Shown here in pieces: positions 1,344-58,933 of a stretch of 64,000 bases of DNA. Below the pieces are notes generated by a model. It had not been told where the DNA came from, made no database searches, and saw only the letters and a list, made by a program, of their open reading frames with translations. Within the stretch, counting starts at the first letter, position 1, and each line of letters starts with the position of its first letter. The position numbers were made by a program, and so were the translations under genes. Source of the DNA: an uncultured Bacteroidota bacterium (GTDB lineage: Bacteria; Bacteroidota; Bacteroidia; Bacteroidales; 4484-276); NCBI GenBank assembly GCA_903944895.1, contig CAJATL010000247.1:1-64000 (forward strand), read 5' to 3'.

Positions 1344-4300
1344 CTATTGAAGTATTAGTTTCCTGAAGATATTAATACCGTTCATTTCTATTTTGATGAA
1401 ATAAACTCCAGGTTGATATCCGGAAAGGTCAATCTGACAAGCATTCTTTGTAGCAATGGTTGTTGTAAATAACGATTGTCCCTGCAAACCGGTGATTGAA
1501 ATATTTGTTCCGGAATCAATTCCAGTGATGTTTACGATTCCTGTTGATGGATTCGGATAGATAGAAACCCCGCTCATTCCTGTCGCGTTGATACCTGTAG
1601 TTTTCTGTATCAGGTTGTTGATTACTGATAAACCATTTGTAACAAACAAGCCGTTGCTATTGGGTAACTGAGCATCGTAAGTAACATCCAAAACAAATTC
1701 TTCGCCTGTTGATGGGCGTATTACCTTGAAGTTAATAGCCTGACCATCGGCAAAACCATCAATTTCAACAGTTGAAATGTCATCAGCGAAAAGCGATAAA
1801 GCCATGGTATTGTTGTTAGCAATAACCATTCCTGCACATAGTCCTTTGTCGGTGAAAGCCCCGATAACATCACCGATCGCAAGTTGAGCAATTGCTTCTT
1901 CGCTAAACACAATGGCATGGCTTGAGCCTGTGTAGGTAACATCATTCCAGTTGGTGATGTTTTCGGTTCGTAATGGTTTTATAAACGAATAACTGTTGTC
2001 GGTACCACATGCCGGGAAGGTGAACGACCCTGCCTGACTTACTTTTACATAGTAGGCTTTGCCAGGAACAAGTGAATTGAGTGTATTGATTCCTCCCGCA
2101 GGATAGTAAATTCCATTACCTGCAACTTCCCATGCAATAACTAATCCGGGAATATTCAAAAGTTGAGTTGCAGGTACGTTGCATGTTGAAAGAACCGGTA
2201 TCAGGTTCCAACCAGCATTTAATGAAATAGATGAGCCTGAATTTGTACCGTTAAGTGTTAGCAGCGATTCACTGCTCATTTTCGTAAGATACCCATGCTC
2301 ATTGGAGAAGGCTCCCATAGTATTGATGTTATAGAGAGGCCAGAACAGATTCCCAAAATATTGGGAAATGATCATGTTATCTACAACCGGAGCAATAACA
2401 TCAGCAAAGGTAGCATCAGTTGAAGGGTTGATGAAAGATGACCATCCATTCCAGTCAAGCGACAGAATGATATTCTGTGAAGGATTCTGTGCCGGCATGA
2501 CATGAAGTGTTACTGGAACGGTAATAACCGGAGTTACCGGGTCGTTGGACGTGACAACGATGTTGGTAAAATAAGTTCCTTCCAAAAGTCCGTTAGCATT
2601 GAAGGTTACGGTGAGATTCATCTGACCAATTCCATTAATCGTTCCTGAGGTTGTAGCAACAGTTAACCATGGATTTCCACCATAAATTAAACTGAATACA
2701 AGTGTACCTGGGCTCAAATTGTTCACATTAAGGACATCTGATTCAGATTCACCAATGAATATTGATTTAGTAAATTGAGCCGGATTTACGGTGATAGCTG
2801 GTACGTAAGGAACCGCTGCACATAATTCATTCGATTGCGGAGTTTGAAGTCCGGTTGCAACAGCTTTAGATACAGTATAGCAATGAGATTCTCCGTTGTT
2901 TACATCTTCATCATAATAGCTCAAACCGTAAACATTGGCAATATCATTACCATCGCGGAAAACATTGAAATATGGAAAAGCATCTTCGCAGGTAAGTTCG
3001 GCAACATAGTCGTTGAAAAGACCACATGAATATCCATCGAATACCTTTACACCAGCCCACAGCCAGTATGTTCCGGCCGGAACACTAACTGTTGCAACCG
3101 CAGGTGTACAAGGTAAGGCTGAAGCAGAGGATAAAATAGTTTGGCCGGCACAGCCTGCATTACCATCAATTATGTAAACTTGCGACGGGAATTCACCGGT
3201 GACAGTCCATGAAATGGTTTTTGGTGAATCCAGGACAACCTCATACCAGTCGGTATCCCGATTTCCACCATTAGCCCATGCTTTACCGCAAATTACGTCG
3301 CCACTTACGATGGGAGTAGTTTGTGGATTGGCCGGATTATTACATCCGTCATTAATATTCTCACTGCAGGCCTCACCTTCCGGTATTGCTCCGGCCGGAC
3401 ATTCAACCTGGCAAACAGGAACGCTGTTAATAGTAATCGTAAATTGATTTATACAAGCCGTTACTGCATCAATCATCAAATAATAGGAACCAGCGTCAAC
3501 AATTGCACTCATTGTTTTATTTCCGGAACCACCTCCTGGGGTTGTGGTAATACAGTTGTTTCCAATCGGACATTCCTGCGTGAGAAGCATGCCTACCCAG
3601 GGCGTTGTAGATGAAATGGCAAAATCAACCATGGTTACTTCATTTACAACAAGTTTATAAACGATGTCTTCTCTACTGTCGTAATCACCAAGGCAAGTGT
3701 TTGAATAGTCATTACCACGCCCGCAGGTTGTGTTTACATTGGTATATGGAAGAGAACCAATAATTATAGGGTCGTCGCATCTATTTCCAACAGTGGACGA
3801 AATGGCAAATTCAATAGAAGATACTTCAGAAACAATATAGTTGTAAACGATGTCTTCATTGTTGTAATCGCCTACTTCAGAAGGTTCATTGAATTTTTCA
3901 ACAATTTGAATAGCATTGGAACCCGAATTTGTATTGGAAGTTGAAAGTTGCTCAATCACGGTTTTATCAACAGGAGCCGGAGAACCTTCTGTCCAAACCA
4001 GGTTTACACCATTGTAATCTGGTATAGCAGAAACCAATACCGGAGCTGGTAAAATGACCACTGAAGCAGGTCCTGCGGCACTTGATTCGCCTTCATTGTA
4101 AACTGCAGTAACAGTATAATTGTAAGTTCCACTCAACAGTCCGAGGTTGTCGTATTCCGTCAGCGGAGTATTGGTAAGAAGATTGCCATTTCGGTAAATA
4201 TTGAAACTGAGTAATGCTTTGGTAGAATTACGAGTTTTAGAATCAGTATCTGGTACAAGCCACTCAAGGTGAACATTATTGTATTCAAAAACATTTGCCT

Positions 4301-23858: not shown

Positions 23859-26800
23859 ATGACAAAATTTACAAAATCAATTTTGCTACTGCTAATTATA
23901 CTAAGCAGTGTTGGAAGTTCATGGGCAGAGACTATTACCGTTGGCGCGGGTACTACAGTTTCCCGCTATCCCTTACTTGACGAAAGTGCGCATTCGCGTT
24001 CACAGATGTTGTTTCTGTCAAGTGAAATTAATACTTTTGGATTAATCACTCATTTAAGATGGTTTCGTTCTGATGAAGTTGCCGATCCAAACGCAATTGG
24101 CACTACTGAAATATGGTTGAAGGAAACTACAAATACGACCCTTTCAGGGGTCACCTGGACAGATCCCGGGACGCTCGTGGCTACCATTTCAAATATGAAT
24201 ATTACTGCTGGAAGCGGTTGGAAAGAGATTAATATCGCTGACTTCGATTTTCATGCAAATCAAAACCTTTTGGTATCAGTCCGTACACAAGACGCATCCG
24301 CAACAGATCCTGCCTCCCAATGGAGATACACACAAACCCCAACAGCCAATAAGGCGCGTGTTGGGAAGTCGAACACGGTAAATCCACCAACAATGGCACT
24401 GTCCAGAAACAGGCCTAACATCCAGTTTGAGTTTTTCAAACCGAGCATTAAAGGCATTGTAAAATCGGCTACTACAAACATTCCTATCAGTGGTGCTACG
24501 ATACAAGCTGGTACTTACCTTCCTGCAATCAGTGCAATTAATGGGTTTTACGAAATCCAGGGGGTTACTGCGGGAACTTATAATGTTGCTGCTACTGCGT
24601 CTGGCTTTAATCCTATATTAATCGAAGATGTGGAGGTTTTATCAACAGTGTCGTCAACCTTAAATATTGCCCTTACCGAAATGCCTTTCGTTTCAGGTAT
24701 TGTAACTTCGGCAACTACCTTCGGTCCAATCGAAGGAGCCAGGATACAAGTAGGTACCGAAATTACATTTACAGCAATTGACGGGTCGTACAAGGTTTTC
24801 CTTCCATCTGGGATTTATGAGGTTACTGCTTCTGCACCTGGATTTTATCTTTCCATAATCGAAAATGTTGAAGTGTCAGCAACCGTGCCGAATACCTTAA
24901 ATATTGCACTTAACGAATTGCCGTTCATTTCAGGTATTTTAACTTCGTCCATGACTTCCAATCCAATTGTTGGCGCAAAGGTACAGACAGGTACTGAGAT
25001 TGCTTTCACTGCTTCAGATGGATCGTACAAAATCCCGCTTCTGCCTGGTAATTATGATTTTGCTGCTTCTGCGCCAGGTTTCAACCCTGCCCTAATTGAA
25101 GATGTGGAAGTGTCGGCAACGATTACCAATACCTTAAATATCGCACTTCATTCTCCAACTCTGGTTGTTAACCCACTATTGATTGTAGAAAACTTAAACA
25201 AAGGTGAAACCTCGACCCGCGAAATGACAATTTGTAATAATGGAGATGGGCCGATGGATTGGAGCGCTTCAATTGAAATAAATGGTAAAAACGCGGAAAA
25301 ATTAAAGGATTTTACTAAAGCTGCCCCTAACGGTTCTCGCATCAATCCTATAGATCCCAAGAGTGGAGTTTTATGGGATAATTCGAATATCAACTTTACA
25401 CCATATTACACTTTTCAGTGTGTTGATCTCACAGGAAAAATTCCTGACGGAAGGTCAATTTTAGCCGACGATTTTATTGTACCTCCATTAGAAACCTGGA
25501 CGATTAAAAATGTTTATTCAATAGGTTACTCTGATAAGATGATTTTACCCGATGCTTTTGCTGTCGAGTTTTATGCCGACAATAATGGCCTTCCGGGCAA
25601 TCTTATCTATACAGAAGACATTGTTCCATCCGACATCAATTTTGCAACTCAGAATCTTGACCTTGCCACTCCGCTTGTTTTGAATGAAGGGCATTACTGG
25701 ATTGCTGTGTATGCAGTTTACAATGGAGCTACCGGCACTAATACAACCGTTTGGTATTGGTCAACCGGCACCGTGCCTATTGGCAATAATATAGCCTACA
25801 ACGATTTTGGAAATATTTGGGGATTCTCATCGTGGGGATGGTTTCATTTGGACATTTTTGGTGCACAAAAACCTTCCTGTTATTTCATCATCAATGGTGA
25901 TAAGGCAGGTGCTTTCGGGCTGTCAGAAACATCCGGAACAATTCTGCCGGGGGAATGTCAGGTTATAACACTGGCCTTTGATGCAACCATATTAACGCAA
26001 GGTACTTACCAGGCTACGCTTACTTTTAATTCTGATCCTGATGTCGGGCAGGTTGAGCTACCCCTTACACTTAATGTATTATCTGAAGTAAACGGTGTTG
26101 TTACTGATGCCAATACCGGCTTGCCACATGCAAATGCTGAAGTAACTTTCGCTGGGTACAATCCGGTTTTCACAGGTTTGGATGGGGTCTATACCTTAGG
26201 CGTTTTACCTGGAGAATATGCCGCTACAGTGCAAGCCGACGGTTACTGTGATTTGACGGTCTCAAATATCATTGTAGGAGATATTTCATTAGTTCAGGAT
26301 TTCCTGCTTACCGGGCCATTGTTTTCTATAGAGCCGACTCCAATAGAGAAAAATCTCGATTATGGAACTGTTATTGGTACTTCTGAAGTAATGGTGTCAA
26401 ATCCTGGAACTTGTGATCTGCCATTTACATCTTCCGAATCGGCCGAATGGCTTGCTGTAAACCCTTCAAATGGAATTATTCCGGCTGGTGGCAATGTTGT
26501 TCTTACATTTACCTATAATCCAACAGGACTTTTTTATGGCAGTTATGAAGCCACGCTTGATTTCGAACTTGGGGTTATCACCGACCAATCTGTTAATGTA
26601 AAACTTAGCATTGCTCAGGAAATTATGATTCCTGCAGCAAATCAATGGGGAGGTATTTCGACTTATGTTGATGTTAATGCAAAAGGTGCATCTTCGATAG
26701 AGGCTTTACTGGCTGAAATATTAGATAATATGGTAATTCTCATCGGTGAAGAAGGTATTTTCTGGCCTGGCCAGAATTTAAACACTATTGGCAACTGGAA

Positions 26801-27746
26801 TAACAATTTTGGGTACAAAATCAAAATGTCAGGCAATGATGAACTTTTCTTTGATGGCACTCCTGTAACAAACAAAACAGCGACTTATTCAGCAGGTATC
26901 CACATTATTCCCGTACTTTCCAATGCTGCAGTTTCAACCCAGGCGATTTTTGGCGGTAAACCTATCGAATTTGCTTTTAGTTTCGACGGAAATGTTTACT
27001 GGCCAAACGGCGGAATCAACACTTTGAATCAACTTTTGCCTGGCTTTGCCTACCTCGTGAGGTTTAATGACATAACAACCTTAGATTTTGAAGTAAAAGG
27101 CGGGTCAGCTGCAAACAATCCTCCGGTACATATTAATACTACCAATTGGAATGATGTTACCAGAAGCGGGGATGTTCACATCGTTTCCTTGCCAGCAAAG
27201 GCATCAGCAGACCTACGTGAAGGTGATGTACTTGGTGTTTTCAACTCAGTTGGAACCTGCACTGGAATGTCTGAATTTGATGGAAGCAACCTCGCTTTGG
27301 TTGTTTACGGAAACGACATGACAACAGTTGAAACCGACGGAATGAACACAGGTGATTTCATGATGTACAAAGTTTTCAGGAATGGGGAAGAATTTGAAAC
27401 TTCTGTCACTTACAGCCCACAAATGCCAAACTACGATGGCACTTATGCTGATAACGGTTTATCAATGATTACCAACCTGAAATTAGGTGCTTTGGCAGTG
27501 AGTGAAAACCCGATGGCCGGCATTTCGATTTATCCAAATCCTTCAACCGGAGTATTCAACATCAACATGAACGGTAGCAAACAAACCATTGGAATGGTGG
27601 TTTCAAACGCTAAGGGACAGGTCATTTACAAAACTCAAATGAACGTTTCGCAACAATTCGACCTTTCATCACAACCAAACGGAGTTTATTTCTTAAGGCT
27701 GATTGGCGAAAATTCGGTACGTCTCGAAAAGCTTATTGTAAAATAA
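23859..27746 (+). CDS. secreted T9SS cargo protein with tandem carboxypeptidase-regulatory-like repeats
   Basis: 1295 residues with a signal peptide (about 1-23, cut near SWAE). A beta-sandwich (about 25-190) precedes three tandem 79-82-residue regulatory-like folds (195-432) with repeated motifs SGIVTSATT, TGTEIxFTAxDGSYK and TASAPGF. Two abnormal-spindle/BACON-type repeats follow, with a choice-of-anchor-like part between them (about 500-680) and another regulatory-like repeat (NGVVTDANTGLPHANAEV, about 746-820). Residues about 922-1083 are the unnamed module shared with two other proteins here, and 1097-1210 the second module shared with the giant protein. Residues about 1220-1295 are a T9SS type A sorting domain (SIYPNPSTG, ending KLIVK). 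No catalytic motif is visible, so a surface adhesin or structural protein is likely. A strong terminator follows. Confidence 0.9.
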   Translation: MTKFTKSILLLLIILSSVGSSWAETITVGAGTTVSRYPLLDESAHSRSQMLFLSSEINTFGLITHLRWFRSDEVADPNAIGTTEIWLKETTNTTLSGVTWTDPGTLVATISNMNITAGSGWKEINIADFDFHANQNLLVSVRTQDASATDPASQWRYTQTPTANKARVGKSNTVNPPTMALSRNRPNIQFEFFKPSIKGIVKSATTNIPISGATIQAGTYLPAISAINGFYEIQGVTAGTYNVAATASGFNPILIEDVEVLSTVSSTLNIALTEMPFVSGIVTSATTFGPIEGARIQVGTEITFTAIDGSYKVFLPSGIYEVTASAPGFYLSIIENVEVSATVPNTLNIALNELPFISGILTSSMTSNPIVGAKVQTGTEIAFTASDGSYKIPLLPGNYDFAASAPGFNPALIEDVEVSATITNTLNIALHSPTLVVNPLLIVENLNKGETSTREMTICNNGDGPMDWSASIEINGKNAEKLKDFTKAAPNGSRINPIDPKSGVLWDNSNINFTPYYTFQCVDLTGKIPDGRSILADDFIVPPLETWTIKNVYSIGYSDKMILPDAFAVEFYADNNGLPGNLIYTEDIVPSDINFATQNLDLATPLVLNEGHYWIAVYAVYNGATGTNTTVWYWSTGTVPIGNNIAYNDFGNIWGFSSWGWFHLDIFGAQKPSCYFIINGDKAGAFGLSETSGTILPGECQVITLAFDATILTQGTYQATLTFNSDPDVGQVELPLTLNVLSEVNGVVTDANTGLPHANAEVTFAGYNPVFTGLDGVYTLGVLPGEYAATVQADGYCDLTVSNIIVGDISLVQDFLLTGPLFSIEPTPIEKNLDYGTVIGTSEVMVSNPGTCDLPFTSSESAEWLAVNPSNGIIPAGGNVVLTFTYNPTGLFYGSYEATLDFELGVITDQSVNVKLSIAQEIMIPAANQWGGISTYVDVNAKGASSIEALLAEILDNMVILIGEEGIFWPGQNLNTIGNWNNNFGYKIKMSGNDELFFDGTPVTNKTATYSAGIHIIPVLSNAAVSTQAIFGGKPIEFAFSFDGNVYWPNGGINTLNQLLPGFAYLVRFNDITTLDFEVKGGSAANNPPVHINTTNWNDVTRSGDVHIVSLPAKASADLREGDVLGVFNSVGTCTGMSEFDGSNLALVVYGNDMTTVETDGMNTGDFMMYKVFRNGEEFETSVTYSPQMPNYDGTYADNGLSMITNLKLGALAVSENPMAGISIYPNPSTGVFNINMNGSKQTIGMVVSNAKGQVIYKTQMNVSQQFDLSSQPNGVYFLRLIGENSVRLEKLIVK
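24441..25155 (+). repeat. tandem 237-246-bp coding repeats
   Basis: Three consecutive in-frame units starting at 24441, 24687 and 24924 encode similar domains (residues 195-276, 277-355 and 356-432). Units 2 and 3 are closest in sequence. They show recent internal duplication within the gene and are not CRISPR or mobile repeats. Confidence 0.8.
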
Positions 27747-55729: not shown

Positions 55730-58700
55730 ATGAAAATCACCAAAATGTTTTTAAGCCCGAAGTTAATCTTTCTGTTCCTGTTAGCAGCATTGATTTTAAA
55801 TCTCATTAATTCACAAAGTCTGTATGCCCAAAGTTGGTCAGGGTTTCCTGGTGGTGGGATGAATGATTGGGTTTATTCGACGGTAGTTTATAACGGTGAT
55901 TTGATTGTTGGTGGCAAATTTACCAGTGCTGGTGGAGTTAGTGCAAATTATATCGCCCGCTGGGATGGAACTTCGTGGACAGCTTTAGGCGAAGGTGTAA
56001 ACGGAAAAGTAAATGCACTTACAGTTTATCAGGGAAACCTGATTGCTGCCGGTGAATTTACCAGCGCAGGAGGGTTTGCTGTGAATTTCATTGCCCAATG
56101 GGATGGCTCTGCATGGAATGATCAACTAGGTGGGGTAGGCAGCACGGTAACTTCACTGGTGGTTTTTAGAGATGAATTGTATGCCGGAGGCTATTTTACG
56201 GAAGCTGATAATACACCGGTTAACTATATTGCAAAGAGGGATACTGCCGGCTGGATAGCTTTGGGCAGCGGAACGGTGGGTACCGAAGGCCAGGTAATGG
56301 CTTTATCGGTTTTTAATGGTGATCTTTATGCCGGTGGTTTTTTCACAAACGCCGGTGGGGTAAGCGCAAACCACATTGCAAAATGGGATGGAACTTCATG
56401 GTCTGGTCTGGGTGCAGGCATTAGCAACATTGTTTACACTTTGGGCGAATACAAAGGAAATTTGATAGCAGGCGGGTTATTTTTGAGTGCTGGTGGTAAT
56501 CCGGCAAATCATATTGCTTCCTGGGATGGTTCAGCCTGGTCGGCTTTGGGCGGTGGAATGGGCGGTGTTTTTTACCAATATGTTTTTGCGCTTCAGGAAT
56601 ATAATGGTGAATTGATTGCCGGTGGATATTTTACAACTTCTGATGGTTTAACAACCAATGGCATCGCTAAATGGAATGGCTCATCGTGGAGCGATATGAA
56701 TGGCGGATTATTTTACCCGGGCAATGTTTATGGTGCGCATACCTTATGTTTGTATGGAGCCGATTTGATTGTTGGAGGATTATTTAATTCGCCAAGCTCA
56801 CATATTGCAATCTGGAATTCGCCTGCTCCTGTTCCGGCGCAGCAATTTATTACAATTCCTCAAGGTTGGAGCGGAATTTCAAGCTATGTAACTCCAGATA
56901 ATCCTGATATTGAAACGCTTTTCCTTTCAGTCCAAAATCAATTAACAATACTTCAGAATCCACAAGGAATGTATTTTCCGTCGCAACAAATTAACACTTT
57001 AGGAAACTGGGACTCACAATCAGGCTACATTGCCAAATTTAATCAGGCAACAACAATTGATTTCTCAGGAGTGTTAATTCAGTTTGGAACGCTAAACCTC
57101 GACGTCGGCTGGAATCTGATGCCTGTTTTATCAACTTGCCCTGTAATTGCCGAAACGTTTTTTGCTGGTTACGATGTTGCTTTAGTTAAAGCTGTTGCGG
57201 GATCCGATTTATACTGGCCGGCAATGGGAATCCATTCGCTTGAGTTGCTTTTGCCTGGCAACGCTTATTATGTTTTGATGAATAGCCCCGCAACCATTGG
57301 TTTTCCTGATTGCAGCGGCTCAAACTGGCAATGTGGAAATCCTTTTGTGGATATTCGTGATAACCAGATTTACCACACGGTGCAAATTGGAAACCAGTGC
57401 TGGATGGCCGGGAATTTAAATGTTGGTGACCAGATTACCGGCACCCAGGAAATGAGAAATAACAGCATAACCGAAAAATATTGCTACGATAATAATCCGT
57501 TGAACTGCAACACTTATGGCGGTTTATATCAATGGAAAGAGTTGATGCAATATTCCGCAAATCCCGGCACAAAGGGTATTTGCGCCGATGGCTGGCATGT
57601 GCCTACTGACGATGAATGGTGTACACTTGAACAAACTGTTGATCCGACAATAACCTGTGGAACTACCGGACTGCGGGGTACCGACGGTGGCATAAACCTT
57701 CAGCAGGGTGGATTTTCCGGTTTTGAAGCAATGGTAGCCGGATATCGCAGCCCTTCGGGCGGACTTTTCATTTCTCTTGGTTCGGGGGCATATTTGTGGT
57801 CATCAAATGCATTTGATTTATCCACAACATGGAGTCGAAACCTAAATGCAGGCGGTGGTGGGATTTTACGCACAAACGATATTCATTTAAATGGTTTCTC
57901 AGTCCGCTGTATCAAAGAAAACTGTATTTCAGCACCGGGCGCTCCTGCTTCAGGAACCCATGTGCCATCAATGACTCAGATCATTTGGAACTGGAACTCT
58001 GTTCCTGAAGCTACTGGTTATTTTTGGAACACTACTAATGATTTAACAACCGCCCTTGATTTGGGTGCAATGACATCTAAAACAGAAACTGGTTTAGTCT
58101 GCAATACGGTTTATGCCAGGTTTGTATGGGCTTACAATGCCTGTGGAAATTCAATTCCGCTTACAATATCTCAAACCACATTTTCATGTGGAGGCCTGCC
58201 CACAATTACAACCACAGTCGTTTCAAATATTGGTCCGGTAACTGCAAGCAGTGGTGGCAATGTAACTTCATCAGGTGGAACTAATGTAACAGCACGAGGT
58301 GTTTGCTGGAGCACTTCGCCCAATCCGACCATCGCAGACGGCAAAACCACAAATGGTACTGGAACAGGAATTTTTGTAAGTGATGTTACGGGATTGGAAA
58401 CAAACACCGACTATTTTTTACGGGCTTACGCGACTAATGGGGCTGGCACCGCTTATGGTAATGAGGTGGCTTTTACAACTACACAATTTGAGATCGGCCA
58501 AAGTTATGGCGGTGGCAAAATCTTTTATATTGATGGAACAGGTCAGCACGGATTAATTTCATCCACAGCCGACCAAAGTACGAGCGCTCAGTGGGGCTGT
58601 TCAGGAACACTGGTTGGTACCTCCACCGCCATTGGAACCGGGCAAACCAACACAACTGCAATTGTTAATGCCTGCAGCCAGGCTGGAACCGCAGCACGCA

Positions 58701-58933
58701 TTTGTAACGATTTGGTGCTGAATGGTTACAACGACTGGTTTTTGCCATCAAAAGATGAGCTCTACCTGATGTACCAGCGACAAGAGGATATTGGGGCTTT
58801 TGCGATTAATACTTATTGGAGTTCATCCGAACAAGGAGCTCCCTTTGCCTGGTACAAGTTTTTTGATGATAATAATCAGAGCTATTCCAGCAAAACCTGG
58901 GGTTATTATGTTCGTGCTATCCGGGCTTTTTAA
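55730..58933 (+). CDS. secreted protein: beta-propeller repeats, shared module, FISUMP domain and DUF1566-like domain
   Basis: 1067 residues with a signal peptide (about 1-33, ending YAQS). Residues about 35-360 hold roughly seven repeats of about 47 residues, pattern GGxFTSAGG then IAxWDGTSWxALG, a propeller-like array. Residues 371-530 are the module shared with the proteins at 1344 and 23859 (GWSGISSYV, NTLGNWDSQSGYIAKF, GWNLMPVLSTCP, YWPAMGIHSLELLLPGNAYYV). About 540-735 is a FISUMP (Fibrobacter major paralogous) domain: IGNQCWMAGNLNVG, GWHVPTDDEW, GFSVRCIKE. An FN3-like pair follows (about 745-920), and the end (about 925-1067) is DUF1566-like (GYNDWFLPSKDELYLMY, YYVRAIRAF). No T9SS tail is present. 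Lectin-like folds in the last parts suggest binding rather than catalysis. Confidence 0.88.
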   Translation: MKITKMFLSPKLIFLFLLAALILNLINSQSLYAQSWSGFPGGGMNDWVYSTVVYNGDLIVGGKFTSAGGVSANYIARWDGTSWTALGEGVNGKVNALTVYQGNLIAAGEFTSAGGFAVNFIAQWDGSAWNDQLGGVGSTVTSLVVFRDELYAGGYFTEADNTPVNYIAKRDTAGWIALGSGTVGTEGQVMALSVFNGDLYAGGFFTNAGGVSANHIAKWDGTSWSGLGAGISNIVYTLGEYKGNLIAGGLFLSAGGNPANHIASWDGSAWSALGGGMGGVFYQYVFALQEYNGELIAGGYFTTSDGLTTNGIAKWNGSSWSDMNGGLFYPGNVYGAHTLCLYGADLIVGGLFNSPSSHIAIWNSPAPVPAQQFITIPQGWSGISSYVTPDNPDIETLFLSVQNQLTILQNPQGMYFPSQQINTLGNWDSQSGYIAKFNQATTIDFSGVLIQFGTLNLDVGWNLMPVLSTCPVIAETFFAGYDVALVKAVAGSDLYWPAMGIHSLELLLPGNAYYVLMNSPATIGFPDCSGSNWQCGNPFVDIRDNQIYHTVQIGNQCWMAGNLNVGDQITGTQEMRNNSITEKYCYDNNPLNCNTYGGLYQWKELMQYSANPGTKGICADGWHVPTDDEWCTLEQTVDPTITCGTTGLRGTDGGINLQQGGFSGFEAMVAGYRSPSGGLFISLGSGAYLWSSNAFDLSTTWSRNLNAGGGGILRTNDIHLNGFSVRCIKENCISAPGAPASGTHVPSMTQIIWNWNSVPEATGYFWNTTNDLTTALDLGAMTSKTETGLVCNTVYARFVWAYNACGNSIPLTISQTTFSCGGLPTITTTVVSNIGPVTASSGGNVTSSGGTNVTARGVCWSTSPNPTIADGKTTNGTGTGIFVSDVTGLETNTDYFLRAYATNGAGTAYGNEVAFTTTQFEIGQSYGGGKIFYIDGTGQHGLISSTADQSTSAQWGCSGTLVGTSTAIGTGQTNTTAIVNACSQAGTAARICNDLVLNGYNDWFLPSKDELYLMYQRQEDIGAFAINTYWSSSEQGAPFAWYKFFDDNNQSYSSKTWGYYVRAIRAF

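Follow-up and report, generated by a model that had tools for sequence, protein, structure and literature searches.

Cargo proteins of the type IX secretion system (T9SS) require a C-terminal signal, of which types A, B and C have been described (PMC10202324). We characterized a protein module that resembles the type A C-terminal domain (CTD; PF18962 / TIGR04183) in its surroundings: it is C-terminal on the same kind of signal-peptide proteins (C25 peptidases, PKD/GEVED arrays), paralogs bear one or the other domain, and its hosts are T9SS-positive Bacteroidota. It is unlike the type A CTD in that HMM and hhalign comparisons reveal no sequence relation, in that it is twice the size with a two-repeat fold, and in that the two are often placed together; its predicted model also has no match to the compact Ig-like beta-sandwich of solved CTDs. 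The type B and type C (ChiA-type) CTDs are C-terminal signals that are likewise unlike type A in sequence (PMC10202324).

The module is encoded three times in a stretch of 64,000 nucleotides (the window), where a sequence-only reading had proposed that three secreted proteins share a domain on otherwise unlike scaffolds. The three segments are indeed homologous, lie in open frames and are found close to where they had been placed. Aligned over their whole length, they are 32-34% identical over 154-165 residues and have 33 invariant columns; BLASTP E-values for the three pairs are 1.5e-27, 3.5e-26 and 2.6e-28. Smith-Waterman scores reach 230-238, whereas 500 shuffles per pair gave 64 at most, which confirms a similarity far above chance.

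In the giant protein (3240 residues; 11066-1344, minus strand), the module spans residues 2863-3020 (2007..2480, minus; E 1.5e-78 against the HMM of its own three-member profile), with repeat 1 at about 2241-2480 and repeat 2 at about 2007-2240. It is followed by a second domain, D2 (1575..2006, minus), conserved in 62 copies in the genome, and by a type A T9SS sorting domain (Por_Secre_tail, PF18962; 1353..1562, minus; E 3.6e-13). The range of 1600-2475 first assigned to the shared domain thus contains the giant protein's module (2007-2480) and also spans the separate, unnamed D2 (about 1575-2006). The cargo protein (1295 residues; 23859-27746, plus strand) has the same arrangement, with the module at residues 919-1080 (26613..27098, plus; three-member profile HMM E 2.6e-76), D2, a separate all-beta domain in the AlphaFold2 model, at 27099..27525 (plus), and the type A sorting domain at 27528..27740 (plus; PF18962, E 3.3e-13). 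In the propeller protein (1067 residues; 55730-58933, plus strand), the module occupies residues 371-528 (56840..57313, plus; three-member profile HMM E 3.0e-79; repeat 1 at 56840-57079, repeat 2 at 57080-57313) and is followed by FISUMP (Fib_succ_major, PF09603; 57380..57916, plus; E 8.4e-27), with Lcl_C at the C-terminus (PF07603; 58568..58924, plus; E 6.2e-13). Pfam and NCBIfam scans found no T9SS sorting domain in this protein; FISUMP, the C-terminal domain type that follows the module in this CTD-less protein, belongs to a family of its own and is annotated apart from the module.

The module is about 160 residues long and consists of two repeats of about 80 residues, each opening with GW(N/S), continuing through a central (Y/F)WP...(I/L)NT stretch to a GY/AY end and closing with a short hydrophobic strand. 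An internal duplication had been suspected from the likeness of the two halves, and profiles of the N-terminal and C-terminal halves, built from 125 sequences, bear this out: 77 of 80 columns align (hhalign probability 99, E 1.7e-17). The most conserved positions are aromatics and Gly/Pro/Asn, including W10, W91, Y63, Y143, P47 and P127. The compact fold that had been anticipated is also what AlphaFold2 predicts from the 125-sequence alignment for the propeller protein's copy (pLDDT 97.3, pTM 0.90), every repeat being modelled as short strands plus one short helix. Foldseek returned no significant match to this model in the PDB (best E 0.8). The only fold match of note is viral, to a phage protein annotated as a putative hemin binding protein (BFVD A0A8D9C8P8, E 2.7e-3, prob 1.00, TM 0.61). 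When module, D2 and tail were modelled together (pLDDT 91.8), the three parts came out joined by low-confidence linkers; the tail of this composite model matches the CTDs of NucA (8glk_D, TM 0.89) and mirolase (8qb1_A, TM 0.74) and so serves as a positive control for the fold search, the remaining significant matches being to generic beta-sandwich multidomain proteins with low TM-scores.

That the module could not be matched to a named family was borne out as well: Pfam-A and NCBIfam annotate its neighbours (CarboxypepD_reg, BACON_2, Por_Secre_tail, FISUMP, Lcl_C and others), and no family in either library covers the module itself. No consistent family emerged when the 125 members were scanned singly against Pfam, and five distant members and two D2 copies gave nothing above the curated cut-off. 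Against PDB chains, the sequence search gave one chance match and the profile search none, and a text search of open-access papers for the GWNL motif found no describing paper. With the Pfam, NCBIfam and PDB sequence searches empty, identity with a known domain is rejected; the domain family is new, being undescribed in the libraries searched. A divergent type A CTD is rejected too, by an hhalign probability of 1-2%. Matches to PF18962 / TIGR04183 are restricted to the separate tails of the giant and cargo proteins. The NCBIfam sorting-domain models matched neither the module nor ten module-ended proteins, in a copy of NCBIfam that may lack a type C model.

The scale and regularity of the family became apparent in the genome of origin (7.17 Mb in 424 contigs), which has about 115 module copies (114 matches in the profile search, 117 unique copies in the fetched loci). 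Placement was scored on the 101 untruncated copies, those whose reading frame is uncut by a contig or locus end: 96 stand at the C-terminus or in a fixed setting near it, and five lie elsewhere. In 34 of the 101, two of them broken genes, the protein ends at most 9 residues (0-9) after the module; in 62, another 200-236 residues follow, corresponding to D2 and the type A tail. An independent count, made from the tail side in two genome scans, places a module 430-493 bases upstream of 39 of the 150 tails listed. The sequence-only reading had held, from the propeller protein, that the module sits mid-chain and is not just part of the T9SS tail; its profile is in fact unrelated to the type A tail, and mid-chain placement proves exceptional. 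That reading missed the scale of about 115 copies, their strongly non-random C-terminal placement and the ability of the module to occupy the position of a T9SS tail.

D2 itself is an unnamed domain of about 145 residues with the motif TPWN..GDxIGAF..GxC.G..FGDDxTT; in 62 proteins here it separates the module from the type A tail, and it is found in other classes too. The D2 copies tested, among them that of the cargo protein, match nothing in Pfam. Mid-chain copies with FISUMP-type sequence after them form a small third class (the propeller protein at 55730-58933, plus strand, and loci L138, L142, L060 and L106). A maximum-likelihood tree built from 99 copies requires about 19 changes of placement, of which well-supported branches force at least six; the D2-tail unit must thus often have been gained or lost, or the module moved. 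Two supported clades consist solely of terminal copies (L198/L156/L194/L197 and L203/L209/L211). Sequence marks dividing terminal from tailed copies were sought and discarded: few columns differ, probably by kinship.

The proteins that end with the module are encoded by real genes. A simple heuristic finds a signal-peptide-like start in 28 of the 30 with a complete 5' end, and no sorting domain was found in the ten scanned by Pfam and NCBIfam. Pfam bodies among these ten include C25 peptidase with its propeptide, M14 carboxypeptidase, Exo_endo_phos with LTD, multiheme cytochromes, CUB/PKD/GEVED/BACON arrays and cohesins; the C25, M14, ExeM-like nuclease and multiheme cytochrome bodies are of typical extracellular kinds. 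The smallest of those scanned, in L197 and L209 (314-327 residues), are composed of a signal peptide, a cohesin, the module and a stop. Recoding of the stop codon is rejected, because TAA (18), TGA (10) and TAG (6) all occur at the module end and no tail lies downstream. Downstream of module-ended genes, no D2 or tail sequence was found in any frame, with the exception of the two broken genes: L175, whose module is interrupted by an in-frame stop, and L161, which has a D2 remnant downstream in another frame.

The genome has 21 cohesin matches and one dockerin match (contig C213), and one protein (L259) carries several cohesins and a dockerin-like stretch at its end. Together with the cohesin proteins of L197, L209 and L198, these matches may represent a candidate surface cohesin system in a T9SS bacterium.

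Related proteins of this genome also show natural exchanges of their ends. Two C25 (gingipain-family) peptidases (L141 and L258) are 65% identical over 1225 residues, sharing propeptide, catalytic domain and PKD/GEVED part, and differ solely at their ends, which are the module in L141 and a type A CTD in L258. Neighbouring genes in L166 are 53% identical over 1065 residues and have unlike ends. Four more pairs lose their homology 3-6 residues ahead of the start of the module (L203/L255, 62.6% over 687 residues; L146/L253, 56.9% over 694; two L151 proteins, 74% over 462; L221/L273, 32% over 539). With ends trimmed, homology of at least 250 residues to CTD-ended proteins was found for 10 of 31 module-ended proteins versus 7 of 78 other signal-peptide proteins (Fisher p 0.006), the comparison proteins coming from the same loci; the fetched loci are a non-random sample of the genome.

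The idea that every module-ended protein has a PorP/SprF shuttle of its own is rejected, as the genome has just five PorP/SprF-family genes, far fewer than it has module-ended proteins. Three PorV-family genes lie above the cut-off and two more are weak; the PorV and PorP/SprF-family genes are on contigs C335, C387 and C284. A PorV paralog could act as a dedicated shuttle for module-ended cargo.

The module extends well beyond this genome. Among relatives, 21 of 59 genomes searched are positive (own genome included), with from 28 to at least 63 copies per searched family member, and in a sample of the phylum 84 of 393 genomes are positive, in many families and also outside the class. SprA_N is present in all 84 module-positive genomes versus 320 of the 393 overall (hypergeometric 2.9e-9, a statistic that ignores shared ancestry). 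Distant copies are mostly terminal or placed before D2 and a type A tail. Very divergent doubles of the GWNLVSLPV type in three families (f72, f87 and f101; four genomes, 16-74 copies) have the same placements: in 20 of their loci, 8 end at most 7 residues after the module and 10 have a type A tail. A single scan of genome contigs placed relatives in Bacteroidota MAGs and in one contig labelled Alphaproteobacteria (L126), where several modules occur along with what looks like a type A tail; it is probably a misbinned Bacteroidota contig. Spread by phages or plasmids is rejected on null searches, tblastn giving no match and no relative being confirmed in viral contigs.

The module resembles the CTD in position and in its exchange between paralogs, and the simplest reading is that of a localization domain able to take the CTD's place. 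We give an even chance to the proposal that it serves exported T9SS cargo as a C-terminal localization domain and can replace the type A tail in delivery to the surface or in anchoring there. An undescribed, duplicated, mainly beta domain of Bacteroidota with the type IX translocon would then occur in two main placements, as the last domain, where a type A CTD would otherwise stand, or directly upstream of the all-beta spacer D2, with a type A CTD after it. Module-ended proteins would be exported, and the module itself would carry the information that delivers them to the cell surface or holds them there. It may be an export signal read by the T9SS or, equally possibly, an anchor that acts in retention after export. 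Since 62 proteins have both module and type A CTD, it would not be needed there as a signal, which argues that it is not solely one. Points against the localization domain are the mid-chain copies before FISUMP, the absence of profile or fold likeness to CTDs, and the commonness of SprA in the sample. As a mechanism, it would be at most a variant of T9SS C-terminal targeting. The stronger form, in which the GWN-repeat domain alone directs cargo such as gingipain-family peptidases and cohesin proteins onto the cell surface, as an additional T9SS signal type beside A, B and C throughout the phylum, is more doubtful, and we put it forward only tentatively.

The same coexistence with a type A CTD in 62 proteins, and the same mid-chain copies before FISUMP, would be natural for an ordinary binding or adhesive domain, for instance for a surface glycan or extracellular ligand, that lies near the C-terminus of proteins exported by another, unrecognised signal. 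The conserved aromatics and Gly/Pro/Asn would suit a binding surface, or just the core of the fold. We consider such a domain a possible but somewhat unlikely explanation: so strict a placement, at the very end of 34 proteins or right before the D2-tail unit, is unexpected for a free domain, as is exchange with the CTD on closely similar bodies. Improbable is a third explanation, that module-ended proteins once were T9SS cargo, have lost the CTD and now are periplasmic or take another route, the module being a remnant of the module-D2-tail unit: the broken genes L175 and L161 do indicate that decay occurs, and about 19 placement switches fit with it, but the remaining module-ended genes have no downstream D2 or tail in any frame, intact terminal modules recur in distant families, and the supported all-terminal clades point to a stable terminal state.

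Should the module be a further CTD family, cargo catalogues would be incomplete for many Bacteroidota, here by about 30 proteins, proteases and multiheme cytochromes among them. As an accessory domain only, it would still be a family with neither a Pfam entry nor a solved fold, carried by roughly one in five of the genomes sampled from the phylum and present in more than a hundred copies here. The natural end swaps make the question of targeting directly testable.
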